Source: Demequina salsinemoris
GTDB taxonomy: Bacteria; Actinomycetota; Actinomycetes; Actinomycetales; Demequinaceae
DNA: 64,000 nt
Direction: 5' to 3'
Assembly (NCBI RefSeq): GCF_000974805.1
Contig: NZ_BBQZ01000003.1
Span: forward strand, 62,001 to 126,000
This document shows positions 6,541-63,094 of this stretch, piece after piece. Numbering within the stretch: the stretch's first letter is position 1; every line of letters begins with the position of its first letter. Under the pieces are notes generated by a model that saw nothing but the letters and a program-made list of their open reading frames with translations, did not search any database and was not told where the DNA came from. Made by a program: the position numbers and the translations under genes.

Positions 6541-6650
6541 CGTCGATCCTTCCAGGTCTCACGCCGCGGCGGCGTCGCCGGGCACGCTCTCCAATCTAGG
6601 CCCATCCGGCCGCTGAGGGTCTTCCGCGAGTGCCGCTCGGGCCGCGTCGC

Positions 6651-6740
6651 GGACCGTTTCTGACACACGACGGTGACGCGAGCCGGCGTGTCGCGCGCGA
6701 CACGCCGCAGCTGCCCTGCGCGCTGTGTCAGGAAGTGTCC
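6651..6740. repeat. 90-bp palindromic repeat element, copy A
   Basis: Outer arms GGACCGTTTCTGACACA (6651-6667) and TGTGTCAGGAAGTGTCC (6724-6740) are inverted copies of each other, and the centre (6685-6706) is a perfect 22-bp palindrome. A second copy of identical length is at 41761-41850; by hand the two align without gaps at about 61 of 90 positions, with arms and centre best conserved. Function unknown. Confidence 0.75.
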
Positions 6741-6840
6741 GCGGAGGCGTGCGGAGGCGCGCGGAGGGGCGCGGAGGGGCGCGGAGGCGTGCGGAGGGGC
6801 GCGGAGGGGCGCGGAGGCGTGCGGAGGGGCGCGGAGGCGT
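6741..6840. repeat. Tandem array, ten 10-bp units
   Basis: Ten uninterrupted units of consensus GCGGAGG(C/G)G(C/T), beginning exactly at the end of palindromic element A and ending 5 bp before the stop codon of the anion transporter. No open reading frame fits it (10 bp is out of frame). Together with element A it fills most of the 305-bp gap 6541-6845. Confidence 0.9.
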
Positions 6841-6845
6841 GCGCG

Positions 6846-8258: not shown

Positions 8259-8379
8259 CGTCGCTCCTCGTTGAGCCCTGCCTCCCCTGGGCACCAGGTC
8301 TATCGGAAGTCCGGGAGCGGCGCACCTTCTGCGCCCTGCGCGTCCCGCGTCGTCCCTGGATCATGTCCCATCCGAGTGA

Positions 8380-8417
8380 GGCTATTGACATTAGCCATAA
8401 GGCTATGGAGCATAGCC
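8380..8417 (+). promoter_or_regulatory. Overlapping palindromic operators before the hydrolase-TetR operon
   Basis: Two perfect overlapping inverted repeats, TAGCC-ATAA-GGCTA (8392-8405) and GGCTAT-GGAGC-ATAGCC (8401-8417), directly downstream of a TTGACA (8385-8390) and 3 bp from the start codon. Likely binding site of the TetR protein encoded second in this operon. Confidence 0.6.
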
Positions 8418-8419
8418 AT

Positions 8420-9253: not shown

Positions 9254-9821
9254 TCGACCTTCCGTGGTCGCGGCGGCGGTCGCGATGGTCGACGAGCTCG
9301 GGGCAGAGTCCCTCACCCTCGCACTCCTTGCCGGGCGGCTCGGCGTCAAGGCGCCGTCCCTGTACAAGCACGTCGACGGGCTCGCCGACCTCCGGGCGGC
9401 CGTGACGGTCGAGTCCAAGCGCGAGCTCGCGGGGGTGCTCGAGCGCGCCGCAGTCGGACACGGGGGCGCGGAGGCCATCGTCGCGCTCGCGGACGCGTAC
9501 CGCGCGTGGGCGAAGGCGCATCCCGGGCGCTATCCCATGACGATCGTCGCCGAGCGCGCGGACGACGCCGAGGACATCGCCGCATCGTCCCGGCTGTACG
9601 CCGTCGTAGCCGGTGCGCTCCGCGCGCTGCGACTGGACGGGGAGGACGAGGTCGACGCGATTCGCGCGCTGCGCGCCTCGCTCCACGGATTCGTGGGCCT
9701 CGAGGCGGCGGGGGCCTTCGGTCTCCCGGACGATGTGGACCGCAGCTTCGCGCTCATGGTCGCCGACGTGGTCGCGGGGCTCGAGCGTAGGGCCGCGAAA
9801 GACGGAACGCCCGCCGGCTGA
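9234..9821 (+). CDS. TetR-family regulator with WHG-type C-terminal domain
   Basis: 195 aa. HTH at about residues 27-46 (LAGRLGVKAPSLYKHVDGLADL) and an effector domain with FVGLEAAGAFG typical of the WHG subfamily. Translationally coupled to the hydrolase, and the operators at 8380-8417 are the likely target, so it would autoregulate. Its ATG sits inside a GGACGATGC motif. Stop codon lies in the loop of the terminator. Confidence 0.88.
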   Translation: MPRAGLDRPSVVAAAVAMVDELGAESLTLALLAGRLGVKAPSLYKHVDGLADLRAAVTVESKRELAGVLERAAVGHGGAEAIVALADAYRAWAKAHPGRYPMTIVAERADDAEDIAASSRLYAVVAGALRALRLDGEDEVDAIRALRASLHGFVGLEAAGAFGLPDDVDRSFALMVADVVAGLERRAAKDGTPAG

Positions 9822-9833
9822 CAGCCGGCGGGC
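9809..9833. terminator. Bidirectional terminator
   Basis: Perfect 11-bp inverted repeat GCCCGCCGGCT / AGCCGGCGGGC with a 3-nt loop between two convergent genes (TetR and FGGY kinase). Confidence 0.8.
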
Positions 9834-9858
9834 GCCCTTCACAGATGCGGCGGAGGCG

Positions 9859-11460: not shown

Positions 11461-11508
11461 CGGTTCTCCAACTCCTTCGTCGTGCGTCCGCCCCGTTGCG
11501 GGCGCGCA

Positions 11509-11525
11509 ATGTGAACGTTCGACAT
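11509..11525 (-). promoter_or_regulatory. Putative LacI-type operator of the FGGY kinase
   Basis: ATGTGAACGTTCGACAT: a perfect 8-bp core palindrome GAACGTTC flanked by ATGT and ACAT, the shape of LacI/GntR sugar operators. No matching regulator gene is next to it. Confidence 0.5.
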
Positions 11526-11699
11526 CACTGTACGGGTTGCGCCTGCGCCCCGACGACCGCCGAAGGTCCCCCAGTCATCGTGCCAGAAGGCGTGGGCGCG
11601 CGCGTGGGAATGCGGCGTTCGTCCCCGTGGGTGCGCTTACCTGCGATGTGATGGCATTCGGTGCTGGATAAATAGTTTGAATATCGCTAAGTTCATCGG

Positions 11700-13025
11700 G
11701 TGATCCCCGTGAAGCGCATCTCGCGCACCCTTGCCGCCTCTGCGGTCGTCCTCGTCCTTGCAGCTATGCCAGCCGCCGCCACCGAGGTCGACGTCTCCGA
11801 CACCCCGTCCGACACGATCATCGTCGACCGCACGTCGGTCGACCGCGCACTCGAGGTCGACACCGTCGGCATCGTCCAGTCGGCCTCGGTGACGATCGAC
11901 TTCCAGAAGATCGACGGCGACAACTGCCCCGTGCCCGAGACCGGCACGCCCTACGACGACGAGATCGTCTTCGGCCTCACGTCGCCGACGGGCACGACCG
12001 TCGCGCTCCTCGAGGAGGACACCTACGACACCAACGACACGACCGCCGGGCGTGTTCAGATGACGTTCCAGGATGGCGGCGCCGCCTTCGGATCCGCGCC
12101 GGCCACCGGCGTCTACGCGCCCGTCGAGCCGCTGTCGGTGCTGGCCGGCGAGCAGGCCGAGGGCACGTGGACCGTCACCGTCGCCGACACCGCGGGCGGC
12201 GACGTCCTGTGCTACTACGGCGCCACGCTGTCGCTCGAGGTACTGGCAGCTCCGGTGCTCGCGGGCACCGCGGTCGCTGACGGGGTCCTCGGCGCCGCCT
12301 ACGACGAGACCCTGGCCCTCGCCAGCACGAGCGACGCGGCTGACTCGTACGCGATCGCGACCGGTGCCCTGCCCGACGGGCTCACGTTCGACACCGCCAC
12401 CGGCGAGATCTCCGGCACGCCCACCGAGACAGGCGACTTCGCCTTCTCCGTCACCGCGACGAACGCCGTGGGCACGAGCGCCGCGGTCGACTATGTGCTC
12501 ACGATCGGATCGGCTCCGACCATCTCCGCGACGGGCGCGCTGACCCTCACGCTCGGCAAGGCCTTCGAATACCTGCCGACGATCGTGGCGGGCTACCCCG
12601 CTGACCTCACGGTCTCGCTCGCGTCCGGCAAGCTTCCGAGCGGACTCACGCTCGACGCGGTCACCGGCGCGCTCTCGGGCACCGCGAGCGTGGCCGGCGT
12701 CTACCCGATCACGCTCAGCGTCACCAACGGTGTGGGGGAGGCCGCCGAGGTGGAGCTGTCGCTCACCGTCGTTGACGACGCCGCGCTCGCCGATTCGAGC
12801 GACTCGGACGACTCGACCGCCGACGCTGCATCCACGGAGGATGACGCCGCCGTCACGGAGACGGCGTCCACGACGACGACCTCCGCCACCTCGGCCACGT
12901 CGGCCACCGCCACCGAGCTCGCGGAGACCGGAGCGCTCGACGGCTGGCAGCCGCTCGCCGCGGGGGCCGCCGCGCTGATGGCGCTGGGAGCCGCGCTCGT
13001 CGCGCGCCGCCGCGCTGTCCGCTGA
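11700..13025 (+). CDS. Cell-wall-anchored adhesin-like protein with LAETG sortase signal
   Basis: 441 aa. GTG start at 11700 is supported by TAAGTT (11688-11693) 6 nt before it, as in leaderless actinobacterial mRNAs; GTG 11709 is an alternative. A signal peptide (KRISRTLAASAVV, cleavage near AAATE) is followed by a proprotein-convertase P-domain-like beta region (about 40-185) and two He_PIG-type Ig-like domains, each with an LPxGLT(F/L)D..TG.(I/L)SGT core. A Ser/Thr/Asp-rich stalk follows, then LAETG, a hydrophobic helix and RRR: a class E sortase substrate. Surface adhesion is inferred. Confidence 0.82.
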   Translation: MIPVKRISRTLAASAVVLVLAAMPAAATEVDVSDTPSDTIIVDRTSVDRALEVDTVGIVQSASVTIDFQKIDGDNCPVPETGTPYDDEIVFGLTSPTGTTVALLEEDTYDTNDTTAGRVQMTFQDGGAAFGSAPATGVYAPVEPLSVLAGEQAEGTWTVTVADTAGGDVLCYYGATLSLEVLAAPVLAGTAVADGVLGAAYDETLALASTSDAADSYAIATGALPDGLTFDTATGEISGTPTETGDFAFSVTATNAVGTSAAVDYVLTIGSAPTISATGALTLTLGKAFEYLPTIVAGYPADLTVSLASGKLPSGLTLDAVTGALSGTASVAGVYPITLSVTNGVGEAAEVELSLTVVDDAALADSSDSDDSTADAASTEDDAAVTETASTTTTSATSATSATATELAETGALDGWQPLAAGAAALMALGAALVARRRAVR

Positions 13026-51909: not shown

Positions 51910-52980
51910 GTGGGGGAGCATGACGCGCGTGTGGTGGCCGGTGACGAGTCGGCCACGCAGCCGTACGTGCCCGGCGCATCGTCCGCCACCGGGGTATGGA
52001 CCGGGTCGTCGAGCGGGGAGCCGGCATCGTCCTGGACCTCCGAGCCGATACGAGAGCGCCGCGGCCGACCCGCGTGGCTGCAATATGTGCTGCTCCTGAC
52101 CGTGACCGCGGCCGCAGTCGGGCTCGCCGGCTACGGAGGGCACCTGCCCGGGTGGGTGCCCTGGCCCGACGCGCTCACACCCCAGCAGCCCGAGGCTCCC
52201 GACGTCGCGTACGCGGTGCACGGCTCCGACGAGCTGAGCGTCTACCTGGCCACGAGCATGGTCGCCCAGGAGGACTCCATCGACGTGACGTGGCTCGTCT
52301 CCGACGAGGACGACTTCGAGGCGATCCTGACGGACACGATGTACGCGGTCGTGACGCAGAACCCCGCAATCTTCGTGGACGGCTGGGCGGTTCAGGGCAA
52401 CGCGGTCCGCGTCGAAGTGGTGCCCGACTACGTCTACGACGACGTGGAGGCCGAGCGTCGCAGGGCCTCCGCACAGGCCGAAGCCGAGAGGATCGCCGCG
52501 CTTCCCGCGATCGTCGCGGCCGCGGACGACGCTGCCCGCGCCGCTGCGATCCACAACCAGGTGATCGCCGCCACCGAGTACGACTGGGATGCCTACGACG
52601 CGATCAACTCCGGGGCGTTGGACGCCAACGCCGCGGTCGTGGCGCGCTCGCAGGAGGGCTACGGTGCGCTCGTCGAAGGCGTGGCCGTGTGCACCGGCTA
52701 CGCGCAGGCGTTCCAGCTGATCGCCGACGCCGCGGGACTCGACAGCGTGATCGTCACCGGCGAGGTGTCGGAAGGGTTGAGCACGGACGGGCACGCATGG
52801 AATCGGGTGCTCGTGAATGGGTCCTGGCTGGTCGTGGACACGACGTGGGACGACGAGGGCGAGGGCTACGTCGCGAGCGACGAGTACCTGCTGCTCGACG
52901 ACACGTCGCCGCGGTTGCTGACCAGGATGGCGGACTCGGACTGGGCGCTCGACGCTGAGCTGGCCGCCTACGGGGCGTAG
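51910..52980 (+). CDS. Transglutaminase-like membrane protein
   Basis: 356 aa, GTG after CGGGAGG. A polar cytoplasmic N-terminus (no DUF2510), one TM helix (WLQYVLLLTVTAAAVGLAGYG, about 56-76), a helical region (YAVHGSDELSVYLATSMVAQED) and a complete transglutaminase triad: AVCTGYAQAF (Cys near 260), GHAWNRVLVNG, VVDTTWDD. Third of four paralogues. External domain expected. Confidence 0.8.
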   Translation: MGEHDARVVAGDESATQPYVPGASSATGVWTGSSSGEPASSWTSEPIRERRGRPAWLQYVLLLTVTAAAVGLAGYGGHLPGWVPWPDALTPQQPEAPDVAYAVHGSDELSVYLATSMVAQEDSIDVTWLVSDEDDFEAILTDTMYAVVTQNPAIFVDGWAVQGNAVRVEVVPDYVYDDVEAERRRASAQAEAERIAALPAIVAAADDAARAAAIHNQVIAATEYDWDAYDAINSGALDANAAVVARSQEGYGALVEGVAVCTGYAQAFQLIADAAGLDSVIVTGEVSEGLSTDGHAWNRVLVNGSWLVVDTTWDDEGEGYVASDEYLLLDDTSPRLLTRMADSDWALDAELAAYGA

Positions 52981-52986
52981 CCACTC

Positions 52987-53015
52987 TTCTCGGTACTGAC
53001 AACAGCCGCTAGTCT
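52987..53015 (+). promoter_or_regulatory. Shared promoter block, copy 2
   Basis: TTCTCG, 17-nt spacer, TAGTCT, 24 bp before the GTG at 53039. Confidence 0.65.
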
Positions 53016-53038
53016 TCCCTGGTAGTGGGGGAGGTTAC

Positions 53039-54208
53039 GTGGACGACAACGGCGCGCGAGCGCGGAAGCCGGTTTTACCTGCGCCAGGTTGGCTGCCGGA
53101 TCCGAGCAGGCTCGACATCGAGCGCTACTGGGACGGGCACAGCTGGACCGCGCGAACACGCGATCGTGTGTCGAAGCTCGAACGAGTGACCTACCCCGAA
53201 CTTCAGCGTTCGGGGCGCGCGAGCCGTGGCGGTCGGGGGCCCCGCGATGCGCCTTTCGTGTGGCGGGGCGGCTCGAACTGGGACCCGGCGCCCTTGCCTC
53301 CACGGCCTCGGGCCTCGCGCATGACGCGGGTGGTCGCTGTGCTCGCCATCGTTGTGGGACTCGTGACCGTGCTCGGATACGCATGGCAGTTGGTGGACCG
53401 CGAGGCCTGGGAAGCGGTCCTCGCCGATGAGTCCCCGACGGGGCCGGACGTCGCGTACACGGTTCACGCCACCACGGAGCTCAGTCGATACCTCGCTCGA
53501 AACCTCATCGCACAAGAAGATCGCATCTCCGTGTCGGCCTTCATGGATGACAACTTCGACGAGGCGCTCTCGGATGCGATGCAGGAGGCGGCTGCGCAGA
53601 ATCCCGACGTGTTCATCAATTCGTGGCAGTGGACCACCAGCGCATCCGGGGCGTGGGTCGAGCCCGCCTACACGTACGACGATGCCGAGGCCGAGCGGCG
53701 TCGGGTCGCCACGGCGCAGGCCGTCGACGCGATCGTCGCCTCGCCCGCGGTCTCCGGAGCCACGACGCAGGTCGAGCTCGTGACGGCCATCCACGATGCG
53801 GTGATCGCCGCGACCGAGTACGACGACGAGTTCTACCAGTCGACGTTGGGCGCGACGATCGAGCCGGGCCCCGATCAGGGCCAGGAGGCCTACGAGGCCC
53901 TCGTCGAGGGAACCGCGGTGTGCAACGGGTACGCGCAGGCGTTCCAGCTGCTCGCCGACGCTGTCGGGCTCGACAGCGTCATCGTCACGGGCACTGCGAA
54001 CAACGGGCTCACCACCGGCCGGCACGCGTGGAACAAGGTGCTGATCGACGGCGAATGGCTCGTCGTGGACACGACGTGGGACGACCTGGGTGCGGCCGGC
54101 GCGCGCCACGACTACATGCTGCTGTCGGCGTCGAGCCCGCTGCTCGCCTCTCGCGCCGCCGGGACCGAGTGGGCGATCGACTCGGCGATCGCGGGGTACG
54201 GCGAGTAG
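53039..54208 (+). CDS. DUF2510-transglutaminase-like membrane protein
   Basis: 389 aa, GTG after GGGGGAGG. DUF2510 (LPAPGWLPDPSRL...YWDGHSWTARTRDR), basic linker, TM helix (about 100-120), then the same ectodomain as its neighbours with an intact triad: AVCNGYAQAF (Cys near 294), RHAWNKVLIDG, VVDTTWDD. Same architecture as the inactive gene at 48728, so those two are the closest pair and one copy has lost its Cys. Confidence 0.82.
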   Translation: MDDNGARARKPVLPAPGWLPDPSRLDIERYWDGHSWTARTRDRVSKLERVTYPELQRSGRASRGGRGPRDAPFVWRGGSNWDPAPLPPRPRASRMTRVVAVLAIVVGLVTVLGYAWQLVDREAWEAVLADESPTGPDVAYTVHATTELSRYLARNLIAQEDRISVSAFMDDNFDEALSDAMQEAAAQNPDVFINSWQWTTSASGAWVEPAYTYDDAEAERRRVATAQAVDAIVASPAVSGATTQVELVTAIHDAVIAATEYDDEFYQSTLGATIEPGPDQGQEAYEALVEGTAVCNGYAQAFQLLADAVGLDSVIVTGTANNGLTTGRHAWNKVLIDGEWLVVDTTWDDLGAAGARHDYMLLSASSPLLASRAAGTEWAIDSAIAGYGE

Positions 54209-54220
54209 TCACGGCGTTCC

Positions 54221-54249
54221 TTCTCAGGATTGACAGCGGTCGCTAGTCT
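54221..54249 (+). promoter_or_regulatory. Shared promoter block, copy 3
   Basis: TTCTCA, 17-nt spacer, TAGTCT, 23 bp before the cellulase start. Confidence 0.65.
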
Positions 54250-54272
54250 TCCCTGGGAGAAGGGGTGATCTC

Positions 54273-56150
54273 GTGGTCTCGAACGGTAGGACGGTACGAA
54301 GGCTCGGACCTGTGGCTGCGAGCAGGCTGGCCGTGGTGCTCGCGCTCACCGCCTGCACCGGTGGGGACTCCGCCGAGCCGTCGGACTTCGCGTCGACGTC
54401 GAACGCGGGCGGCGCATCGTCCTCCGCGTCCGTCGACGGCCACGTCGACAACCCCTTCGCCGGCGCGACCATGTACGTCAACGCCCAGTGGTCCGCCCAG
54501 GTCGAGGAGACCGCGTCCGACTACGAGGACTCCGACCCGGACCTCGCCGACGACATGCGCGCCGTGGCGTCCGAGCCGACCGGCGTGTGGATGGACCGCA
54601 TCTCGGCGATCGATGGCAATGCCGACGGGCCCGGGCTCAGATATCACCTGGACGCCGCCCTCGACCAGCAGGACGGCGACCAGCCCATCACCGTGACCGT
54701 CGTCGTGTACGACCTGCCCGGGCGCGACTGCTTCGCGCTCGCGTCCAACGGCGAGCTGCCCGCGACCGACGAGGGGCTCGAGCGGTATGAGACCGAGTAC
54801 ATCGACGCGCTCACCGCGATCTTCGCGTCGCCCGAGTACGAGGACCTGCGGATCGTCACGGTCCTGGAGCCGGACTCGCTGCCGAACCTCGTCACCAACT
54901 CCTCGGACGCGAACTGTCAGGCGGCCGATCCGTACTACCGGGCCGGCGTCGCCTACGCGCTCGACGCGTTCGCCTCGCTCCCGAACGTCTACACCTACAT
55001 CGACGCGGCGCACTCGGGCTGGCTCGGGTGGGACTCGAACTCGGGGCCTTCGGTCGCGCTGTTCGCGTCCGTCGTGGAGTCCACCGAGGCTGGTTTCGAC
55101 GCCGTCGACGGCTTCGTCACCAACACCGCGAACTACACGCCCACCGAGGAGACCTATCTGGCCGATGCCTCGCTCCAGGTGGGTGGTCAGGAGATCCGGT
55201 CTGGGAGCTTCTACGAGTGGAACTACGACTTCGACGAGGCCGACTGGACCGCGGATCTGTACGCGCGGGCCGTCGCGGCGGGCTTCCCTTCCACCATCGG
55301 GATGGTGATCGACACCTCCCGCAACGGCTGGGGAGGCGACGATCGGCCGACCGAGGTGACCGACGCATCGTCCGTGGATGCGTATGTCGCCGCCAACAAG
55401 ATCGACGCGCGCACGCACCGCGGCGCGTGGTGCAACCAGTCGGGCGCGGGGCTGGGGCTCAGGCCGCAGGCGCTGCCGTCGGGGTATCCGGACTCGCACC
55501 TGGACGCGTACCTGTGGGTGAAGCCGCCGGGGGAGTCCGACGGGTCTTCCGAGGAGATCGACAACGACGAGGGCAAAAGTTACGACCTGATGTGCTCGCC
55601 GTCGTACTCGACCGAGCGGCTTGGCGGTAACACGACCGGGGCTCTGGCCGATGCGCCGCTGTCGGGGAAGTGGTTCGCTTCCCAGTTCGCCGAGCTCGTC
55701 GCGAATGCGTATCCGGCCGTGGGCGAGGAGAACCCGCCTGCCAGGGAGGACGACTCGGTGGAGCTGGGGTCCGCTGAGGACTCGGCGGCCGGTGACTCCT
55801 CAAGCGATGCGGACGATGCCTGGGGTGAGGACGATGCGGTCGTCGCCGGGGAGTCTGGCGAGTGCTCGGCCTCGCTCGAGGTGACGAACTCGTGGCAGGG
55901 CGGGTTCCAGGCGAACGTTGTCGTGACTGCGGTGGGTGACCTGGCGGGCTGGGAGGTCTCGTTCGACCTGCCGACGGGCGTCGAGATCGACGGGCTGTGG
56001 AACGGCGACTCGTCCGGGACGAGCGGGGCCGTGACCGTGGGCGACGTCGGGTGGAATGGCGTGTTGGCCGCGGGCGAGACGGGGGAGTTCGGGTTCACCG
56101 GGACAGGGGATGCGCCTGACGGCGTGGACGTGGAGTGCGTGGGGAACTGA
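54273..56150 (+). CDS. Lipoprotein GH6 cellulase (cellobiohydrolase-like) with CBM2
   Basis: 625 aa, GTG after AAGGGG. Signal with lipobox LTAC, so membrane-anchored rather than released. GH6 catalytic domain about 45-470: VVYDLPGRDCFALASNGE, catalytic-acid region RIVTVLEPDSLPNLV, DAAHSGWLGW, NTANYTP, VIDTSRNGWGG, YLWVKPPGESDG. An acidic Ser/Asp linker leads to a C-terminal family 2 carbohydrate-binding module with three conserved Trp and terminal Cys. Hydrolyses cellulose from chain ends or as an endo-enzyme; loop detail cannot be judged. Confidence 0.93.
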   Translation: MVSNGRTVRRLGPVAASRLAVVLALTACTGGDSAEPSDFASTSNAGGASSSASVDGHVDNPFAGATMYVNAQWSAQVEETASDYEDSDPDLADDMRAVASEPTGVWMDRISAIDGNADGPGLRYHLDAALDQQDGDQPITVTVVVYDLPGRDCFALASNGELPATDEGLERYETEYIDALTAIFASPEYEDLRIVTVLEPDSLPNLVTNSSDANCQAADPYYRAGVAYALDAFASLPNVYTYIDAAHSGWLGWDSNSGPSVALFASVVESTEAGFDAVDGFVTNTANYTPTEETYLADASLQVGGQEIRSGSFYEWNYDFDEADWTADLYARAVAAGFPSTIGMVIDTSRNGWGGDDRPTEVTDASSVDAYVAANKIDARTHRGAWCNQSGAGLGLRPQALPSGYPDSHLDAYLWVKPPGESDGSSEEIDNDEGKSYDLMCSPSYSTERLGGNTTGALADAPLSGKWFASQFAELVANAYPAVGEENPPAREDDSVELGSAEDSAAGDSSSDADDAWGEDDAVVAGESGECSASLEVTNSWQGGFQANVVVTAVGDLAGWEVSFDLPTGVEIDGLWNGDSSGTSGAVTVGDVGWNGVLAAGETGEFGFTGTGDAPDGVDVECVGN

Positions 56151-56153
56151 CTC

Positions 56154-56182
56154 TTCTCGGTTCTCGAACTGATCGCTAGTCT
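56154..56182 (+). promoter_or_regulatory. Shared promoter block, copy 4
   Basis: TTCTCG, 17-nt spacer, TAGTCT, 18 bp before the helicase start. Confidence 0.6.
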
Positions 56183-56199
56183 TCACCCGAGGGGGACAC

Positions 56200-58305
56200 A
56201 TGACCGCTGGTAGTTCTGCAAAGACGGAGTCCGAGCGACAGCTCGCGCTCGCGGCCGCCCACGAGGCCGCGGCGGCTGACGCGCGAGCTGCGGCCGGGCG
56301 CTACGAGGTCGCAGGCGTGACCGAGCATCGGATCGCGCGACTGCTCGCGCCACTAAGCGTCTACGAGGCACGGTTCCTCCATGACCGTCGCTGGCCCGGG
56401 TCGCGCCGGGCGCAGGTGGACCTGATCATGGTCGGCAAGCCCGGCGTCTTCATCATCGACACGAAGGCCTGGAAGGACGTCTCGATCGTCGACCAGCGCA
56501 TCTTCCGCGGCGACGAGGACGTGACCGAGGACCTGATGAATCTCGCAGACCTGTGCGATCGCGCGGAGGAGGACCTCGCCGCTATCGGACTTGCTCCGGG
56601 CGAGGTCCACGCCGTTGTCGTGCTCGCCGGGCGGCAGGGCATCAATGCGCGGGTCGGACCGGTGGAGGTGGTGGGGGAGAAGGACCTGCTGCGTCACATC
56701 GCGTCCAAGGGCGAGAGGCTCACCGTCACCCAGGTGGACGAGGTCGATGGGCGGTGCCGGCAGTTCTTCCCGCCTGTGTCCGCGCCTGCGCACACGGCAC
56801 CGCCCGTATCCGTCGAGGTGCCCGTGCTGCATGTCCAGACGGATGAGCCTGTGGTCGACGAGGCTGACGCACTCTTCTCTGCCTCCGAGGTCGAGGCCGC
56901 GTTGCTTGAGGGGATCATGGCGCAGCCCGTGGAGGAGTGGATGACCTTCCTCCACCCCGACCAGGCGAAACTCGTGCGTCGTTCCTTCAACGGGCCCTCC
57001 CGCATCCGCGGCGCGGCCGGGACCGGCAAGACCGTCGTCGGGCTGCATCGTGCGGCGTATCTGGCGCGGACCAGGCCAGGGCGGGTGCTCGTGACGACCT
57101 ACGTGCGGACTCTTCCTTCGGTGCTGAAGACCTTGCTCGGCCGAATGGCACCCGACGTGGTGGACCGCGTCGACTTCATGGGAGTTCACCAGTTCGCGTC
57201 GTCCGTGCTCGACGACCGCGGAGTGCGCCGCAGGCTCGACAGTTCCGCGGCGGATGGTGGCTTCGCCGCGGCGTGGAATGCGGTCCCCATGGACAGCCCG
57301 CTGAGGCGCAAGGGGCTGTCCGAGCGGTATTGGAGGGAGGAGATCGACTACGTCATCAAGGGGCGAGGAATCTCCGACTTCGACACCTACGCCGAACTGT
57401 CTCGCACCGGGCGGCAGCATCGTCTGGGACTTGACCAGCGTCGGGCCGTGTGGGGCCTGTATTTGGATTACGACCGCAACCTGCGGCGCCAGCGCGTGCA
57501 TGACTTCGCGGACGTGATCCTGCTCGCCGAGGCGGAGCTCAATCGCGAGCCGCTCGCCGAGGGCTATGCCGCGGTGATCGTCGACGAGGCGCAGGACCTC
57601 AGCTGCGCGATGGCGCGCATGCTGCACTCGCTCGTGGGCGACGCGCCCGACGGCTTCACTCTGATCGGAGACGGGCAGCAGAGCATCTATCCGGGCGGAT
57701 ACACGCTTGTGGAGGCCGGGCTCTCCGTGGCCTCGCGAGGCGTCGTGCTCGACATCAACTACCGCAACACCGAGGAGATCCTCGACTTCGCGCATGGGCT
57801 CGTCGCGGGGACTGGATACGCCGACATTGAGGGAGAGATCGCGAAGGGTGAGCGGCCTCGCTCCATCTCTCGTTCGGGGCCCGTGCCGGAGATCGCGCGA
57901 TGTGCCACCTGGCGCGAGCATGATCGCGCTCTCGTGGCGCGGGTCCAGCGCACTGTCCGAGAGATCGGCACGTCGCTCGGGGACGTCGGGGTGCTGTGCG
58001 CCTCCAACTACACGGCGGACAAGGTCCGAAAGGTCCTCGCGGAAGCCGGCATCGCGAGTGTGGACCTCAAGGAGTATGACGGTGTCGCGGCCGACGCGGT
58101 GCGCGTGGGAACGATCAAGCGCGCCAAGGGTCTCGAGTTCAAGCAGGTGCTCGTTGCGTCGGTGAGGCTGTCGCTGCTCGAGGGCGAGCCTCCTTCCGAG
58201 GACGATGCGGCCGAGCGCGAGACTTGGGAGCTTGCTCGCAGGGAGCTGTACGTGGCGCTGACCCGCGCGAGGGACGGGCTTTGGGTCGGGGTGGTCGCGC
58301 AGTGA
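56200..58305 (+). CDS. NERD nuclease domain-SF1 helicase fusion
   Basis: 701 aa. The N-terminal NERD domain (about 55-160) has RRAQVDLIMVGKPGVFIIDTKAWK with the D and DxK residues of a nuclease core. The helicase part follows: Walker A GAAGTGKTVVGLH (about 270), motif II VIVDEAQDLSCAM, motif III GDGQQSIYPGG, motif V RAKGLEFKQVLVAS and VI VALTRARDGLW. NERD-helicases are recurrent in defence islands and repair loci. GC content is normal for the window. Convergent with the GIY-YIG helicase gene. Confidence 0.88.
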   Translation: MTAGSSAKTESERQLALAAAHEAAAADARAAAGRYEVAGVTEHRIARLLAPLSVYEARFLHDRRWPGSRRAQVDLIMVGKPGVFIIDTKAWKDVSIVDQRIFRGDEDVTEDLMNLADLCDRAEEDLAAIGLAPGEVHAVVVLAGRQGINARVGPVEVVGEKDLLRHIASKGERLTVTQVDEVDGRCRQFFPPVSAPAHTAPPVSVEVPVLHVQTDEPVVDEADALFSASEVEAALLEGIMAQPVEEWMTFLHPDQAKLVRRSFNGPSRIRGAAGTGKTVVGLHRAAYLARTRPGRVLVTTYVRTLPSVLKTLLGRMAPDVVDRVDFMGVHQFASSVLDDRGVRRRLDSSAADGGFAAAWNAVPMDSPLRRKGLSERYWREEIDYVIKGRGISDFDTYAELSRTGRQHRLGLDQRRAVWGLYLDYDRNLRRQRVHDFADVILLAEAELNREPLAEGYAAVIVDEAQDLSCAMARMLHSLVGDAPDGFTLIGDGQQSIYPGGYTLVEAGLSVASRGVVLDINYRNTEEILDFAHGLVAGTGYADIEGEIAKGERPRSISRSGPVPEIARCATWREHDRALVARVQRTVREIGTSLGDVGVLCASNYTADKVRKVLAEAGIASVDLKEYDGVAADAVRVGTIKRAKGLEFKQVLVASVRLSLLEGEPPSEDDAAERETWELARRELYVALTRARDGLWVGVVAQ

Positions 58306-58343
58306 ATCACGAAGTCGAGTGCATCGGCGGGCATGCGAGAGGT

Positions 58344-60059
58344 CTAGTCGAAGTAGGCCCGTAGACGGTGCCTGAGTGCTGGATCGCAGACGTAAACGTA
58401 CGTTCCTCGCATCCCCCGGGTCAGAAGGACTCGGTATGCGTTGAGAACGAGACTCAGGATCTCGTCGTCGGAATATGTGATTCCCAGGAGTCTGTTGTTT
58501 TGTTTGCCACGGGTGTCCGCGTATTGAGCGCGGTCCAGAATGATCCGGCGCGCCGACGGGTCCCACTTCAGCTCCGGTCCAATGATCACCCCCGCGTAGT
58601 TCAGGTCGTAACCCTGAACAGTATGGATCGAGCCCACTTCATGTAGGGATGTCGGCGTGTTGATCCAGTCGACGTCGGTTTGATTCCACTGGAGCTGGAG
58701 ACCGTCGATATTGATATCAACCGCGGCCGGGTCCTTCTTGCTCAACCATTTCCAGCCGAAGCCCGCGACGAGACGCGAAAGCCCCGCTTCGTGGTCGCGG
58801 GCGATGATTGCGCTACGCATGTCACGCAGGCTTTCGAAGAACCTGAGGTCGTAGCCTGCGAAACGCTGAGGCTCGCGTGGAGCGGCGCCAGAGAGTAGTT
58901 CGCGGACGAACGCAAGATAGTCGTCGCCGCCTTGTACTCGCATCTGGGACCTGAGCGGGTAGAGGCGTCCGACCGCTCCGGCAGCGCTTCGGAGCTGTCT
59001 CGTGGTTTCAGGCGGCAAATCGATCGGACGCACGCTTTGCTCATGGTCCAAGAGCAGGAGTTGGTGTCTGCTCCTCCTCGAGATCCAGTCCAATTGCGTG
59101 AGGCTCTCCCAGCGCTCTCCTTTATGCGCCAGCGACTGAGAGATGTGGCGGAAACGGTTGGTTACGCCCGGCGCCGACTGGGCGCCCCATTGCGACAGGC
59201 GATGGGTCTCGTCGACGATGAGCAGGTCGAAGTCTTCTGGTTGGTTGTAGACGTCGTAGGCGCTCAATACCATGCTGGCGCGCAGGCCCGGAACGCGTCT
59301 GAAGACTCCCTTGATTGAACGCCGCAACGACTGCTGAGGTACGACGAGGCCCATTCGGAAGCCGCGCAACGCTTCGCGATATCCGCCGACGAAGAAGTCG
59401 GAGAACACGGAGTCAGAAGGTGCATCGTCCGATGGCTCCGTCGACGCGATATCGCTCAGCAGTTTCATGAGGTAGATTGCGACGATCGTCTTGCCCGTCC
59501 CAGGCGCGCCTTGGATTACTGCGCGACTCGCCGTGCCACCGGATAGGTCGTCGAAGAGGCCCTCGAGGATGTCGACGATGGCCACTTCCTGGTCCTGCGT
59601 GAGGGCCTTGAACGGGGACAGTTTGAAGAGGTCGCTGTTCTCGATCTCGGCAATCGAATTCCGGAAGAGATCGTCTTCGCGTAATTGCTCGAAGATCTCC
59701 CCAAACAGTGCTTGATAGCGATCTCGATCGAAGTAGTCCGCGTTGGTGATGCCATCGTTGCGGTTCAGAACCGTGAACTGGCCGTCGCCGGCGAAAAGCC
59801 GTATGAGGTACGACTCGAGGTCGAGGCATACCGACTTGTTGAACTGTTCGTCGATGACCACCCGCAGAGACGTCAAATGCTTCTTCTCCGGGTTGTCAAG
59901 ATGCTGTCGCATCCGCCCGACGGCGTTCAGGGTTTCGCCGACGTACACCTCGCGCCTGTCGTTGAGCGTGTAGACGACGGGCCAGTTCGACTGACGGCCG
60001 TGGGGCTCTTCCCAGGTTCGCAACGAGGCCGGGCTGAACGGCAGTCGCTCAATCTTCAT
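58344..60059 (-). CDS. GIY-YIG-DUF2075 helicase (Schlafen group-3-like), candidate defence protein
   Basis: 571 aa. N-terminal GIY-YIG-type nuclease domain (about 25-95): VVYTLNDRREVYVGETLNAVGRMRQH, later LESYLIRLF. DUF2075 ATPase/helicase: Walker A QGAPGTGKTIVAIY (about 185), Walker B DLLIVDETHRLSQ, VGSIHTVQGYDLNYAGVIIG and LTRGMRGTYVYV at the C-terminus. ATG overlaps the MazG-like gene by 11 bp. Base composition is clearly lower (28 and 31 G/C in two sampled 60-base rows against about 42 in valS), suggesting recent acquisition. Confidence 0.85.
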   Translation of the reverse strand: MKIERLPFSPASLRTWEEPHGRQSNWPVVYTLNDRREVYVGETLNAVGRMRQHLDNPEKKHLTSLRVVIDEQFNKSVCLDLESYLIRLFAGDGQFTVLNRNDGITNADYFDRDRYQALFGEIFEQLREDDLFRNSIAEIENSDLFKLSPFKALTQDQEVAIVDILEGLFDDLSGGTASRAVIQGAPGTGKTIVAIYLMKLLSDIASTEPSDDAPSDSVFSDFFVGGYREALRGFRMGLVVPQQSLRRSIKGVFRRVPGLRASMVLSAYDVYNQPEDFDLLIVDETHRLSQWGAQSAPGVTNRFRHISQSLAHKGERWESLTQLDWISRRSRHQLLLLDHEQSVRPIDLPPETTRQLRSAAGAVGRLYPLRSQMRVQGGDDYLAFVRELLSGAAPREPQRFAGYDLRFFESLRDMRSAIIARDHEAGLSRLVAGFGWKWLSKKDPAAVDINIDGLQLQWNQTDVDWINTPTSLHEVGSIHTVQGYDLNYAGVIIGPELKWDPSARRIILDRAQYADTRGKQNNRLLGITYSDDEILSLVLNAYRVLLTRGMRGTYVYVCDPALRHRLRAYFD

Positions 60060-60375
60060 AAGCGTCGTACTTGGTGCTCTTGCCTCGGGCCTTCTCGACC
60101 GGGTACTTCACGCGCGTCGTCGCCAGTTTGTCGAGCACAATCTCGTCGGCGTCCAGGCCGAGCGCATCGGCGAACAGCAAGCAGTAGGTGAGCACGTCGG
60201 CCAATTCGTCCTTGACCTTGTCGGCATCGGCGTAGGGACTCCATTGGAAGCACTCAAGCAGCTCGCCAGCTTCGATGGAGATGCTTTTCGCGAGATTCTC
60301 GGGCGTGTGGAACTGCGCCCAATCGCGTTCGCGAACGAATTCTCGGAGAGTGCGAAGGACCTCGTCATCGGCCAT
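60049..60375 (-). CDS. MazG-like nucleotide pyrophosphohydrolase
   Basis: 108 aa from ATG 60375, 6 nt after TACTGT (60382-60387), leaderless. All-alpha NTP-PPase fold: SISIEAGELLECFQW (the metal-binding ExxE region) and KDELADVLTYCLLFADALGLD (second ExxD). Hydrolyses (d)NTPs to monophosphates. It is the first gene of a two-gene operon with the GIY-YIG-DUF2075 helicase and overlaps it by 11 bp, so the products probably act together. Confidence 0.88.
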   Translation of the reverse strand: MADDEVLRTLREFVRERDWAQFHTPENLAKSISIEAGELLECFQWSPYADADKVKDELADVLTYCLLFADALGLDADEIVLDKLATTRVKYPVEKARGKSTKYDAYED

Positions 60376-60530
60376 GTCTGGACAGTAGCAAGCGGTGCCT
60401 GGCCGTGGCAGGAGGGCACCGGCGAGCCGTCCCAGGTGGCGGTGAGCGACGGGGAGGTCTCGCAGCCGAGTGTGGAATACATCACACGCCAAGCAGTACC
60501 CTTGAGGCAGTCAGTGTCAAGGAGGCGGTC

Positions 60531-60806
60531 ATGACGGTCGATAGCGCAACCAAGGCCGGCGTCGTGTACTTCCACGGTCCCGAGCCCGTCTTCGCCGACC
60601 ACTACGACTACCGCGAGGAGAGGGCCTACATGGCGACGCTCGCCGAGATCGACAGCCTTGACGTCCCGACGGACCGTGGTGCCCACGCCGCCGCGTCGGC
60701 CCCGGGTAAGAAGAAGTCGCGTGCCCAGGCGGCCGCGGCGGCCACCCGTCGCTCGGTCGCCTACGCCACGCTGGCCGCGCTCGAGGTTCGCGCCGCGCGC
60801 GCCTGA
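60531..60806 (+). CDS. Hypothetical 91-aa protein
   Basis: ATG after AAGGAGG. An N-terminal half with YFHGPEPVFADHYDYREERAY is followed by a basic Lys/Arg/Ala-rich tail (PGKKKSRAQAAAAATRR) that could bind nucleic acid. Not recognised. A GCGC hairpin follows the stop codon. Confidence 0.55.
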   Translation: MTVDSATKAGVVYFHGPEPVFADHYDYREERAYMATLAEIDSLDVPTDRGAHAAASAPGKKKSRAQAAAAATRRSVAYATLAALEVRAARA

Positions 60807-61025
60807 ACCGAGCCCGCGCTTTCGCGCGGCGGCGGTCCCGGATCCACGGCGCGCCGACGGATCGTTTGACGCCCGTCAAACAAGGTCCTACGGTCTGAGG
60901 TGGAGGCACGTCACCGGCGACTGCACCCTTCCCTTCCCCGGGGGCATGGCCAGCGCTGCCGTGCAGCCGCGCGCCACACGAGGCGCAGGCATCGGGCTTG
61001 CGCTGCACAACGGAAGGGGAATGCC

Positions 61026-61250
61026 GTGACCGCTGGAAAGATCGCCAAAGTCGTCGAAGTCCACCGCGACGGCCGCGCCATCGTCGAGATCGGGAGCGAG
61101 CGCCAGGAGGTGCTCGAGATGACCGTCTCCGACGACGACATCACGCCGGGGGACTGGGTCATCGTCCGTTCCGGCTTCGCCCTCGAGCGCCTCACGGACA
61201 AGGAGCTCAAGGAGCTCCAGGCGCAGCACAAGACCGAGATCACCGCCTGA
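61026..61250 (+). CDS. HypC/HupF-like small protein without the N-terminal Cys
   Basis: 74 aa, GTG after GGAAGGGG. The beta-barrel pattern GKIAKVVEVHRDGRAIVEIG then ITPGDWVIVRSGFALERLTDKE matches HypC hydrogenase chaperones (VGDYVLVHxGFAxxxxDxxEA). The essential MC(L/I) start of HypC is replaced by VTAGK. No hydrogenase or hyp gene is near, so it probably does something else. Confidence 0.6.
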   Translation: MTAGKIAKVVEVHRDGRAIVEIGSERQEVLEMTVSDDDITPGDWVIVRSGFALERLTDKELKELQAQHKTEITA

Positions 61251-61267
61251 CCGGCGACGCTCAAGCT

Positions 61268-61297
61268 CCGACGCCCGGGCGGGAGCGCGGGCGTCGG
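61268..61297 (+). terminator. Terminator after the HypC-like gene
   Basis: Perfect 10-bp stem CCGACGCCCG / CGGGCGTCGG with 10-nt loop. Confidence 0.75.
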
Positions 61298-61340
61298 CGT
61301 GTCTCGGTGGCTTGCCGACCGGAAGCCGCCTAGCGTGGGG

Positions 61341-61371
61341 TGTGACAGATGTCACACGTGCGTCGTATAGT
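61341..61371 (+). promoter_or_regulatory. CRP-type operator and -10 box
   Basis: TGTGACAGATGTCACA (61341-61356), exact TGTGA-N6-TCACA, 9 nt before TATAGT (61366-61371). The operator covers the -35 position. Differs from the 48051 site at one central base. Confidence 0.65.
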
Positions 61372-61422
61372 TCACCTCATCTGGAATATGCACCGAGTGA
61401 CGCTAGGCCTGGGGGATTGACG

Positions 61423-62190
61423 ATGCAGATCGCTGGAGACGCGAGCAGTCTGGACCTCTGGCGCAGGGCCGTCCTCGACAACGCGGACGATGCGTCCCTC
61501 AAGCTCGGCCTCGCCCGCGCCTTGGTCTCGCACTCCATCCGCGCCACGTGCTCGGGCGGCGACGGAGCGGAGCTCCTCGCCGAGTGCGCCTTCACCCTGT
61601 GCGCGATCGATGACCTCGAGGCGCTGACCGACCCCGAGGCTCTGCTCTTCGCGGGCACTGCCGCGGGCTGTGCGAGCGGTCTCGTCACGGCGGGGCGTCC
61701 CCGTCTCGCGCTCGGCGTCCTTGCGCCCGCTGCGCACGTCCTCGACTCGCGCCCGGCCCTCGCCGGCACCGCGACGCCGCAGGCCAAGCCGCAGCTGCCC
61801 GGCACGGCGGCGGAGGACGGGAGTGAGGCCAAGGGGCGCGCCCTGGCGGCCTCGGCCCGACGCTCCGAGGCCTCGCGCAGGTTCCAGTCGTTCACGCCGT
61901 ACAGCCCCGAGGATGTCGCCCCTGGCACCGTCTTCACGACGCCGTGGCCCCTGCCTCCCGTGTCGTGGCACTACCTGCGCGCGTCGGTCGGCGTCGCGAT
62001 GGGATGCGGGCTCGCGGCCGTCGGCGAGACGGACAAGGCGATCGCGGAGCACAGCGAGGCGATGCTCACCTGCTTCGCGGGGGCGCCCTACGACTACGCT
62101 CGGACCGTCAGCCTCTCGGCGACGATCGGGCGTCGGCTCGAGCAGCTGCTCGAGACCAGCGAGCCGCACGGTCGCGCCGCGAACCGCTGA
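61423..62190 (+). CDS. Unknown helical protein, paralogue 1
   Basis: 255 aa, ATG 61423 with GGGGG upstream. All-helical, Ala-rich, with a low-complexity middle (about 115-150). It shares with the next gene LAECAxTLxxID-LExL, GRPRLAL-LAPA and a C-terminal block starting SPED(V/T)APG and containing WPLPxVSWxYxRA and IGRRLE. No known catalytic motif. Preceded by a CRP-type operator. Confidence 0.65.
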   Translation: MQIAGDASSLDLWRRAVLDNADDASLKLGLARALVSHSIRATCSGGDGAELLAECAFTLCAIDDLEALTDPEALLFAGTAAGCASGLVTAGRPRLALGVLAPAAHVLDSRPALAGTATPQAKPQLPGTAAEDGSEAKGRALAASARRSEASRRFQSFTPYSPEDVAPGTVFTTPWPLPPVSWHYLRASVGVAMGCGLAAVGETDKAIAEHSEAMLTCFAGAPYDYARTVSLSATIGRRLEQLLETSEPHGRAANR

Positions 62191-62268
62191 CGAGCTGCCG
62201 GAAAAACCGGACATCGGGGGACATGTCCACCAAATCTCGGGAGATTTCTCCTTGGACTGTGGAATTTC

Positions 62269-62278
62269 TCACATGTGA
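62269..62278. promoter_or_regulatory. Short palindrome before paralogue 2
   Basis: TCACATGTGA, followed by CACCTAGGCT; possibly a half-degenerate relative of the CRP-type sites, but it does not fit TGTGA-N6-TCACA. Confidence 0.3.
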
Positions 62279-62338
62279 CACCTAGGCTGGCACTCAGAGT
62301 CACTTCGGGGGGCGAAGCGGCTTGTTGGGGGTATTCAC

Positions 62339-63094
62339 ATGCAATACAGCAGGGGACTGATCGGTCCGGCCGCCTGGCGGGCCGCACGCGACGCGAGGCC
62401 CACCGATCCGTATACGCGGCTCGGACTGGCGCAGGCGCTCATCGTGCGGGCCTTCGAGGCCGATGCGGACGAAGTCGGCGATGCGAGAGGCGACGAGCTG
62501 TCGATCCTCGCCGAATGCGCGCGCACGCTCGCCTCGATCGACGGGCTGGAGGGGCTCAGCAACTGCGACGCGCTGCTCTACGGCTCCACCACGGCGCGAT
62601 GCGCGACGCGCCTCAGCGAGCTGGGTCGCCCGCGGCTCGCGCTCACGATCCTCGCGCCTGCGATCGCGCTCCTCGATGAGCGCGCCGGCAAGGCCGGCTG
62701 CGCGCCGTGCGAGCTGTTCCGCGACGCCTCTCCCGGGTCATCGAACGCATCGGCGCCGCAGGCGACCGCCCACGCCGCTCGCCCCGACTTCGTGGCGCTC
62801 AGCCCGGAGGACACGGCGCCCGGCGAGCTGTTCACGCGACAGTGGCCGCTGCCGGGCGTGTCCTGGCAGTACATGCGCGCGACCCTCGCGGCCACGGCGG
62901 GATCGGCCCTGCTGCTGGCGGGGGACCATGACCGGGCCATCGACGAGCTGAGCCACGCCGCTCTCATCGCGATGGTCGGCGCGCCTCTCGACTACACGCG
63001 CACGGCGCAGCTTTCGGAGGAGATCGGTCGCCGGCTCGAGGAGGCGCTCGACCTCGAGGCCGCCCTGAGCCGCGAGGGGCTCTGGGGGCAGTAG
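62339..63094 (+). CDS. Unknown helical protein, paralogue 2
   Basis: 251 aa, ATG after TTGGGGG. Same length and domain order as paralogue 1 with about 40% identity in the shared blocks by eye, including SPEDTAPGELFTRQWPLPGVSWQYMRA and YTRTAQLSEEIGRRLEE (each read in two parts). Tandem duplicates; a TPR-like scaffold is the best guess. Confidence 0.65.
   Translation: MQYSRGLIGPAAWRAARDARPTDPYTRLGLAQALIVRAFEADADEVGDARGDELSILAECARTLASIDGLEGLSNCDALLYGSTTARCATRLSELGRPRLALTILAPAIALLDERAGKAGCAPCELFRDASPGSSNASAPQATAHAARPDFVALSPEDTAPGELFTRQWPLPGVSWQYMRATLAATAGSALLLAGDHDRAIDELSHAALIAMVGAPLDYTRTAQLSEEIGRRLEEALDLEAALSREGLWGQ

Follow-up and report, generated by a model that had tools for sequence, protein, structure and literature searches.

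The window, a stretch of 64,000 nucleotides from Demequina salsinemoris, holds two overlapping genes on the minus strand. Gene A encodes a protein of 571 aa and gene B one of 108 aa, counted from its ATG. The features of the locus and its boundaries are as follows.

58344–60059, minus strand: gene A, GIY-YIG nuclease domain and Schlafen-group-3 (DUF2075) SF1 helicase (Pfam, AlphaFold model, fold matches)
59796–59960, minus strand: GIY-YIG domain of gene A, residues 34–88 by Pfam; the fold match begins earlier than the Pfam span
58383–59522, minus strand: helicase domain of gene A, residues 180–559 (Pfam PF09848)
59487–59510, minus strand: Walker A motif GAPGTGKT of gene A, residues 184–191, inside the helicase domain
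60049–60375, minus strand: gene B, predicted DCTPP1-type nucleotide pyrophosphohydrolase of the MazG-like family (Pfam PF12643, profile matches)
60049–60059, minus strand: overlap of the end of B with the start of A, 11 nt (ATGAAGATTGA), read from the sequence
58306–60464, strand not applicable: block unlike the sister genome G028 (blastn of the window against L152)
56200–58305, plus strand: NERD-UvrD helicase gene, left boundary, outside the module (Pfam; a 93% identical protein lies at the same place in G028)
60528–60803, plus strand: gene of 91 aa, right boundary (78% identical in G028)

The NERD-UvrD gene is convergent with gene A and 38 bp separate their ends. A further ORF lies to the right of the module at 60975–61250. 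The GC content of 58001–60000 is 0.620 and 0.594 in its two kilobases, against 0.679–0.693 at 53–58 kb, 0.666 at 60–61 kb and 0.698–0.706 at 61–64 kb. A preliminary description of this DNA had claimed an 11-bp overlap of the two genes, low-GC DNA and a combination of GIY-YIG, Schlafen-like helicase and MazG domains. The coordinates and the composition bear out the first two, and the third is confirmed by Pfam for the helicase and MazG and by fold for the GIY-YIG domain.

The helicase of gene A scores 216.6 bits against SLFN-g3_helicase PF09848 (formerly DUF2075), with a cut-off of 24. In the AlphaFold model (pLDDT 89.0, pTM 0.87) it is most similar to UvrD (Z 20.5), followed by human SLFN11 (Z 18.2) and SLFN14 (Z 17.0), with VIA-align spans of 277 and 279 residues for the latter two. 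Walker A residues G187, G189, K190 and T191 are kept in 80 of 81 aligned rows, that is, in every row with letters there, while D283, E284 and H286 of the DExH motif and R548 are kept in 81 of 81; Q482 is invariant as well. The Pfam score and the SF1 motifs place gene A in Schlafen group 3. The rows come from the 80 best-scoring of at least 580 contig stretches that encode a relative of A, all 80 actinobacterial by record titles, so the invariance among them partly reflects kinship. In Schlafens the nuclease is N-terminal to the helicase. Gene A shares this order and the C-terminal SF1 helicase, and the Pfam family of its helicase is named after the Schlafens. It differs from SLFN11 and SLFN14 in having a GIY-YIG domain in place of the Schlafen RNase core, in its length of 571 aa, in its MazG partner and in that UvrD outscores both on the helicase. 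Within residues 1–150, Pfam up to E 1 finds GIY-YIG alone and no Schlafen RNase core, and we rejected gene A as a Schlafen protein proper.

The Pfam score of the GIY-YIG domain (PF01541) is 19.6 bits in A and 17.4 bits in a natural fusion protein, below the cut-off of 22.6. A separate model of residues 1–145 (pLDDT 89.3) matches the GIY-YIG nucleases UvrC (Z 6.5), T4 EndoII (6.0), I-TevI (5.4), Eco29kI (3.9) and Slx1 (3.8). After re-alignment, ranks 2–12, 14 and 16 are GIY-YIG structures (Z 6.5 to 3.4), and rank 1 is the N-terminal domain of a plant Grx (Z 7.9). Foldseek with the same domain model gives nothing at E ≤ 0.001, the best being the plant Grx domain at 0.038, then UvrC from 0.085. 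The domain sequence searched against the PDB matches I-TevI with an E of 0.21 and an unrelated chain with one of 0.47, and a 13-row profile of full-length A finds EndoII, I-TevI and UvrC at E 0.0006–0.01, below Orc1 and other P-loop chains. Residues Y30, Y39, G41, R49, H53, E82 and N99 are identical in 80 of 81 rows (every row with letters there), and a set of 13 more divergent rows likewise keeps all of them except N99. GIY-YIG membership is supported by the fold and by the catalytic Tyr/Tyr/Arg/Glu/Asn set, with N99 varying in the wider 13 rows. Overall, fold and alignment show gene A as a predicted nuclease-helicase, with a GIY-YIG domain that keeps its catalytic residues and an intact SF1 motor of the SLFN11 kind.

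Gene B matches the MazG-like family PF12643 with 66.2 bits (cut-off 27), and Pfam finds no domain besides MazG in its 108 residues. Its best profile matches are DCTPP1 structures (6sqw and 2a3q) with E 1.4e-31 and 112 bits, covering the whole domain. The ExxE...ExxD metal site is present as E35, E38, E57 and D60, and these residues together with W19, W45 and Y64 are kept in all 77 rows, as they are in all 15 of a wider set. They line up with the metal ligands, the two base-stacking tryptophans and the tyrosine of DCTPP1 (RS21-C6). Where DCTPP1 has a histidine assigned to the base, B has Leu10. B also differs from DCTPP1 in being a bacterial protein of 108 aa tied to a nuclease-helicase gene. 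By alignment, B is a predicted DCTPP1-type pyrophosphohydrolase that keeps the residues for metal binding and base stacking. DCTPP1 is described as hydrolyzing dCTP and 5-modified dCTP (PMC7162842), and as the nearest relative of B is this dCTP pyrophosphatase, the likeness points to dCTP or modified dCTP as the substrate. The nucleotide-destroying enzyme proposed in the preliminary description stands as a MazG family member with its catalytic residues; the likeness to DCTPP1 does not point to general NTP destruction.

The pairing of A and B extends well beyond this locus. Across 396 sampled genomes of the order, 45 loci encode the full-length GIY-YIG helicase, and a MazG gene lies no more than 2.5 kb from 44 of them. 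The two genes are arranged in three ways, and the MazG belongs to one of two subfamilies. Among the 80 best relatives, 76 are paired with MazG; another (L086) is the natural A-MazG fusion, and for three (L035, L048 and L062) MazG is not found in the stretches around A. Rarity of adjacency, set beforehand as an outcome that would speak against the proposed module, is not seen, and the pairing is more frequent than expected by chance. In the same 396 genomes, matches to the helicase part only are paired with MazG in 21 of 49 cases. These counts start from 118 helicase rows, or 108 with each of ten split matches counted once, and four short fragments are included, two (of G121 and G286) in the class of long matches and two among the helicase-only matches. 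A Mantel test of A against B gives r 0.43 (p 0.001, window and 75 loci, shared ancestry uncorrected). Outside Actinomycetota the pairing is loose, with MazG on 2 of 9 plasmid records that have a long match to A. No consistent third gene accompanies the pair; by single-linkage blastp the largest cluster of neighbor proteins beyond the module covers 16 of 89 loci.

B precedes and overlaps A in 69 of 76 related loci, and taking the nearest helicase start codon, the overlap is exactly 14 nt in 61 of 76. The 11-nt overlap in the window possibly reflects translational coupling. Antitoxin-toxin operons often have the antitoxin gene first, the order of B then A, which raises a quite improbable reading in which B, by removing a nucleotide or an infection-made nucleotide signal, would keep the nuclease-helicase off or reset it, toxin-antitoxin style. 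The kept catalytic residues of B suit such control, as does the position of another MazG at the opposite end where B is absent. However, no MazG is found with A in the three relatives named above and in 7 of 9 plasmid loci, which argues against B as an essential restraint. Another possible, though unlikely, reading is abortive infection: on sensing a replication intermediate or foreign nucleic acid, A would activate B, and B would drain dNTPs, so that replication of phage and host halts. This agrees with the overlap and co-inheritance of the genes and with AvcD, a deoxycytidylate deaminase described as a phage-defence toxin (PMC10511110). It agrees less well with the nuclease site kept in A, which suggests that A is more than a sensor, or with B being a bare MazG enzyme; a dNTPase that is free and always active would be toxic.

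The site itself has been subject to exchange. In blastn of the window against L152, from the sister genome G028, matching stops at 58305 and restarts at 60465, and another helicase and MazG module occupies the same site with the same flanks (L152 5799–10300). It differs in its N-terminal domain, its MazG and its orientation. The block that differs, 58306–60464, is nearly the stretch 58306–60400 named at the outset. The 91-aa gene on the right flank has no match at E 1e-6 in 45 other family genomes beyond G028. In the second helicase class (L009, L152 7201–9072 and others), the N-terminal domain gives nothing up to E 1 with a five-sequence profile against the PDB, and Pfam on one such protein finds the helicase region alone; an ELKQW stretch in this domain may, in our view, mark a PD-(D/E)XK nuclease. 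A second kind of exchange concerns the partner. Four GIY-YIG helicases of Demequina have a D-type MazG downstream, and in the tree they fall among the B-paired proteins, together with those of the window and G004, at a support of 97 (L082, a split ORF, and L022, which shares its genome with L008, were omitted). By this topology one clade has swapped partners and now carries a MazG of another subfamily at the opposite end of the helicase. Taken together, the comparisons show A and B as co-inherited, usually overlapping, once fused, and with B replaced by another MazG subfamily in one clade.

Full-length A is present in about 6–7 of 47 genomes of the family and, as 45 GIY-YIG loci in 396 genomes, has a patchy spread in the order; the housekeeping distribution named beforehand as the other outcome against the module is not what we see. 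The pair also occurs on two Lactobacillaceae plasmids. Viral contigs queried with A give three pattern matches, none a relative, and named phage records give four matches. The best of these is on a faecal scaffold of 10.6 kb that carries the label UNVERIFIED and has otherwise bacterial-looking genes. This distribution bears on a role in genome maintenance, in which B would clear damaged or unwanted dCTP analogues and A would remove or repair DNA containing them, as accessory repair rather than defence. The MazG of M. tuberculosis is described as a housecleaning enzyme (PMC10014863), DCTPP1 as maintaining dNTP pools and averting a mutator phenotype (PMC7162842), and UvrD is the closest helicase fold to A. 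The patchy presence, the exchange of modules at one site, the low GC of the locus, the occurrence on plasmids and the defence-rich neighborhoods nevertheless make it rather improbable.

Those neighborhoods were compared with PADLOC at 1e-15. The 79 upstream neighbors match 49 families and the 73 downstream neighbors 105, compared with 9 for 123 control genes taken from arbitrary stretches; the tallies count families and not proteins with a match, so the comparison is a proxy. Genes were called by a crude GC3 rule, and the control stretches were hand-picked in 20 genomes, the 123 genes coming from the first 16. By this proxy, restriction and other defence genes look more frequent beside the module than among arbitrary genes, in line with the defence-island setting suggested beforehand. 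R-M, Orf5/HEC-06-like and AAA genes adjoin three of the Demequina loci examined. SauUSI-like DUF3427 genes lie within 5 kb of 6 of 45 GIY-YIG loci, and the type I restriction domain HSDR_N near 0 of 45. The comparison covers matches that share a contig with a DUF2075 match, picked by eye: 18 of 89 for DUF3427 and 13 of 150 for HSDR_N, where 89 and 150 are summed totals and contig ends may hide neighbors; the expected number assumes a mean genome of 3.6 Mb. Ordinary metabolic genes are also common as nearest neighbors (zinc dehydrogenases, 5 of 79), and some matches look spurious, namely PbeA (4 of 79, perhaps zinc dehydrogenases) and mad3 (2 of 79 against 2 of 123 controls). Five of ten genes chosen beside Demequina loci have no PADLOC match or a weak one, and to the right of the pair in the window no defence gene is recognized among the few genes tested.

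The NERD-UvrD helicase, earlier taken as a sign of a defence island, is not a regular partner and was rejected as a third member: five other genomes of the family have this gene, and in one of them (G028) a module adjoins it, and NERD is present in 3 of 79 upstream neighbors.

From the sequence evidence, the pair is fairly likely to be a mobile two-gene defence module of a nuclease-helicase and a (modified-)dCTP hydrolase, a cassette that probably guards its bacterial hosts from invading DNA. A would load on invading or replicating foreign DNA and translocate along it by ATP hydrolysis, cutting it, and B would hydrolyze dCTP or 5-modified dCTP alongside. The DNA of the invader would be cut while a normal or protective precursor is withheld. 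That the genes overlap, and are fused in one relative, suggests that A and B are made in a fixed ratio or form a complex. A more specific scheme, which we regard as speculative and doubtful, is that B destroys phage-protective 5-modified dCTP (or dCTP), A cuts the plain-cytosine phage DNA and neighboring SauUSI, McrBC or GmrSD type enzymes cut modified DNA, giving a combined pool-and-DNA immunity against base modification in which the N-terminal domain and MazG are both exchangeable. Enzymes of these types adjoin the module in a minority of loci.

No PADLOC 2.0.0 model covers A or B; the best match of A is partial (PDC-S14, GIY part, 26.2 bits; PDC-S41, helicase part, 25.1 bits), and B gives nothing up to E 1. 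We found no paper on the pair in one open-access library, which holds few subscription papers and no bioRxiv preprints outside PMC. DefensePredictor names MazG among predicted nucleotide-modifying defence domains, none of them validated (PMC13092281), a listing that also favors abortive infection; its main text mentions no DUF2075, GIY-YIG or Schlafen. If the defence reading is true, the pair is an unnamed defence module made of bacterial cousins of the SLFN11 helicase and of dCTP pyrophosphatase. It is also common, with at least 580 contig stretches encoding a relative of A. Both the swap of partners and the replacement of the module at one chromosomal site suggest a need for MazG activity, whichever MazG supplies it. 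Why a nuclease-helicase would need a dCTPase thus becomes a directly testable question, with three point mutants and with phages differing solely in cytosine modification.

Two further known systems are comparable. Hachiman, with the nuclease HamA and the helicase HamB, follows a two-gene nuclease-helicase defence logic (PMC12278908); it differs in that A fuses nuclease and SF1 helicase and the partner gene B encodes a predicted nucleotide hydrolase. The type IV restriction enzyme SauUSI (PLD-helicase-DUF3427) cleaves m5C/hm5C DNA (PMC3874153), and MutT homologues adjoin its homologues (PMC7641849), so that a nuclease-helicase again lies next to a small nucleotide pyrophosphohydrolase. The nuclease, helicase and hydrolase families of A and B are nevertheless all different, and A is not known to cut m5C/hm5C DNA. 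A SauUSI-like gene adjoins the A/B pair itself in several loci.

The two genes lie on the minus strand in the order B to A:

58344-60059, minus strand: gene A, 571 aa, GIY-YIG and Schlafen group 3 (DUF2075) helicase
60049-60375, minus strand: gene B, 108 aa, MazG-like protein

The final 11 nt of B overlap the start of A, as the preliminary description had stated. Its helicase and MazG family names also hold in Pfam, where residues 180-559 of A match the Schlafen group 3 helicase family PF09848 (216.6 bits) and B matches the MazG-like family PF12643 (66.2 bits). The GC content is indeed lower than in the surroundings, 0.62 and 0.59 at 58-60 kb versus 0.67-0.71 in the 5 kb to the left and 4 kb to the right. 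The host genome (G000), of the actinobacterial genus Demequina, is assembled into 3.2 Mb on 20 contigs and is 98.8% complete; the window is on contig C18.

The AlphaFold model of full-length A, made with 43 sequences, has a pLDDT of 89.0 and a pTM of 0.87. On structural re-alignment its helicase part is closest to UvrD (Z 20.5), followed by human SLFN11 (18.2), SLFN14 (17.0) and Dda (16.7). The GIY-YIG domain named in the preliminary description matches in Pfam at residues 34-88, below the curated cut-off. Residues 1-145, modelled separately (pLDDT 89.3), re-align with UvrC over 79 residues at 2.4 Å (Z 6.5), and with T4 EndoII (6.0), I-TevI (5.4), Eco29kI (3.9) and Slx1 (3.8); the top-ranked structure is a plant Grx domain (Z 7.9). 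A Z below 8 is not strong by itself. However, 11 of the 12 leading rows are GIY-YIG nucleases, and Tyr30, Tyr39, Gly41, Arg49, His53, Glu82 and Asn99 are identical in 80 of 81 rows, the 80 with letters at these positions. All of these except Asn99 are also invariant in a set of 13 rows whose identity goes as low as 25%. From these rows and residues the N-terminal domain is taken as a GIY-YIG nuclease with a predicted intact site.

A profile of B, built from 15 MazG partners, matches dCTP pyrophosphatase 1 (DCTPP1; E 1.4e-31) and, almost equally, the 118-aa pyrophosphatase 4qgp (E 1.8e-31), and more weakly dUTPases (~1e-6), MazZ (2e-5) and YpjD (2e-4). E35, E38, E57 and D60, which we take to be the metal site, are identical in 77/77 rows and in 15/15 of a wider set, as are both tryptophans and Tyr64. 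By sequence, B is a DCTPP1-type enzyme, for which we infer the substrate.

The pairing proposed earlier recurs widely. A profile search of genome contigs gave at least 580 relatives, and among the best 80 a MazG gene is found in 76 loci. Measured from the helicase start codon nearest the MazG stop, the overlap is 14 nt in 61 of these 76 and 4, 11 or 20 nt in 8; in three the genes are separated by 1-4 nt, L086 is a fusion, another locus places MazG downstream, and for two there is no helicase start nearby. The Phycicoccus sp. HDW14 complete chromosome (L086, 6680-8728) encodes MazG, GIY-YIG and helicase in a single chain of 682 aa, a ready candidate for structure work. MazG is absent from the locus stretch in 4 of these best 80 (L025, L035, L048 and L062). 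The L025 stretch stops 85 bp past the helicase and L025 belongs to a clade with downstream MazG, so its MazG may lie beyond the contig end. L035 (4216-6630) has instead, directly upstream, an 804-aa protein that looks helicase-like from its N-terminus.

An independent count joined helicase and MazG searches in 396 genomes sampled from the order. MazG lies within 2.5 kb of 44/45 full-length GIY loci (upstream and on the helicase strand in 38, downstream in 4 and divergent in 2), where chance would give ~0.02 neighbours (45 x 5 kb x 107 / (396 x 3.6 Mb), genome size assumed); the rows are non-independent through relatedness, which affects the variety of arrangements less. A longer GIY form has MazG, always divergent, in 11 of 14 rows, two of these rows being fragments. 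Helicase-only matches are paired in 21/49 cases, and conversely 75 of 107 MazG matches adjoin a DUF2075 helicase. In family f4 of the order (e.g. L166, 7305-9179, genome G123) the GIY helicases are mostly 715-815 aa with the match interrupted near residue 335, and MazG is near in 10/13 rows, divergent in those ten.

The MazG partner is not constant. In four Demequina genomes (G037, G015, G023 and G042) a MazG of another subfamily (D-type), 39-41% identical to B, lies downstream of the helicase. In a tree of 88 helicases made by a quick method, these four group with the proteins of G004 and the window, where B precedes the helicase. The clade, of 7 rows including L025, has support 97 and nests among B-paired proteins. 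The simplest reading of the tree is that B was lost there and another MazG subfamily gained at the opposite end. The requirement seems to be for some MazG rather than one particular gene.

Exchange is also seen at one chromosomal site. In blastn the sister genome G028 shares the window flanks at 53444-58305 (85%), 60465-60810 (84%) and 60866-63066 (80%); the NERD-UvrD helicase on the left is 93% and a small gene on the right 78% identical as protein. In the window these flanks enclose A and B; in G028 they enclose 4.5 kb that encode a 623-aa DUF2075 helicase of a second class, which shares 24% identity with A over residues 131-571 of A, together with a D-type MazG and a 332-aa protein for which PADLOC gives no match. 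In G004 the window's version adjoins the same right-hand genes, NERD is missing and there are additional genes; G043 has these right-hand genes but not the module. Comparison of these four genomes shows that the site carries one of two versions or lacks both. The pair of G015, G023 and G042 adjoins another gene of the window's neighbourhood.

Tandem paralogues without Pfam match lie at 61312-62190 and 62339-63094 (~40-44% identical); the former occurs in 4/47 family genomes (E 1e-20), with a helicase-MazG module close in 3/4. Two similar adjacent genes at 51910-54208, the second with a transglutaminase-like domain and DUF2510 in Pfam, match the same relative and are followed by a GH6 cellulase with CBM2 (54273-56150). 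A second DUF2075 helicase of the window's genome is on contig C16 (L163, 7093-9129). A divergent MazG (10380-10916) is located ~2 kb away from its match, and the 19 kb around them are lower in GC (0.57-0.66). A third MazG is on C20 (29115-29450).

The nearest neighbours of the 80 loci (the best of at least 580), compared with PADLOC at E 1e-15, lend some support to the suggested defence setting by a count of families. The 79 upstream neighbours match 49 PADLOC families and the 73 downstream neighbours 105, versus 9, mostly doubtful, for 123 control genes from 16 hand-chosen stretches in genomes of the order. Among the matches listed are, upstream, type IV restriction (at most four proteins), RmrA, Drt3b, MzaA and PbeA (four neighbours, which may be dehydrogenases), and, downstream, Orf5/HEC-06, LmuB, AbiU and methyltransferases; Pfam finds GmrSD_N in three downstream neighbours. 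Metabolic neighbours are also common, with five zinc dehydrogenases upstream. The pair adjoins a type II restriction enzyme, a methyltransferase and PDC-S02 in G037, and an AAA gene of PDC-M55A/NsnB type in G015; the second locus of G000 has an Orf5/HEC-06 gene and a weak TIR match. HipA-like and Sir2-like genes of G004 (by reading) and the tested neighbours in G028 and G005 have no PADLOC match.

One link is to type IV restriction. A PLD-helicase-DUF3427 gene immediately precedes MazG-A in L013 and L011; its product has the architecture of SauUSI, which cuts m5C and hm5C DNA (PMC3874153). Of the 89 DUF3427 matches across the 396 genomes, six are no more than 5 kb from a GIY locus (~0.03 expected) and a seventh is 7.6 kb away. 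For type I HSDR_N, with 150 matches, none was found within 100 kb of such a locus. The link is thus not to any restriction gene at large, HSDR_N being the one control family compared. DUF3427-linked loci are a minority (6/45 GIY loci).

The sequences show two enzymes with conserved active sites that are inherited together, usually from overlapping genes, with exchange both of the module at one site and of the MazG partner. Context and residues suggest that A would attack foreign DNA and that B would act on dCTP or modified dCTP within the same defence. In our view a nuclease-helicase whose partner changes the invader's precursor pool is most likely; the main rival is nucleotide starvation with abortive infection, as proposed in the preliminary description. 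A cytosine trap is the boldest reading the data allow. The one close remark in the open-access literature searched, in PMC13092281, lists MazG among predicted, unvalidated defence domains.

Outside Actinomycetota, MazG is present in 2/9 examined plasmid records with long A matches (L011 and L012) and was not found in L010 and L014-L019. The L011 stretch (2324-12747), from a Lactiplantibacillus plasmid, has all genes in one direction: Nudix, PLD-helicase-DUF3427, MazG, GIY-YIG helicase, an unknown gene, a weak AAA-match protein and a DUF2357/PD-(D/E)XK protein. The arrangement resembles a stack of systems directed at modified DNA.
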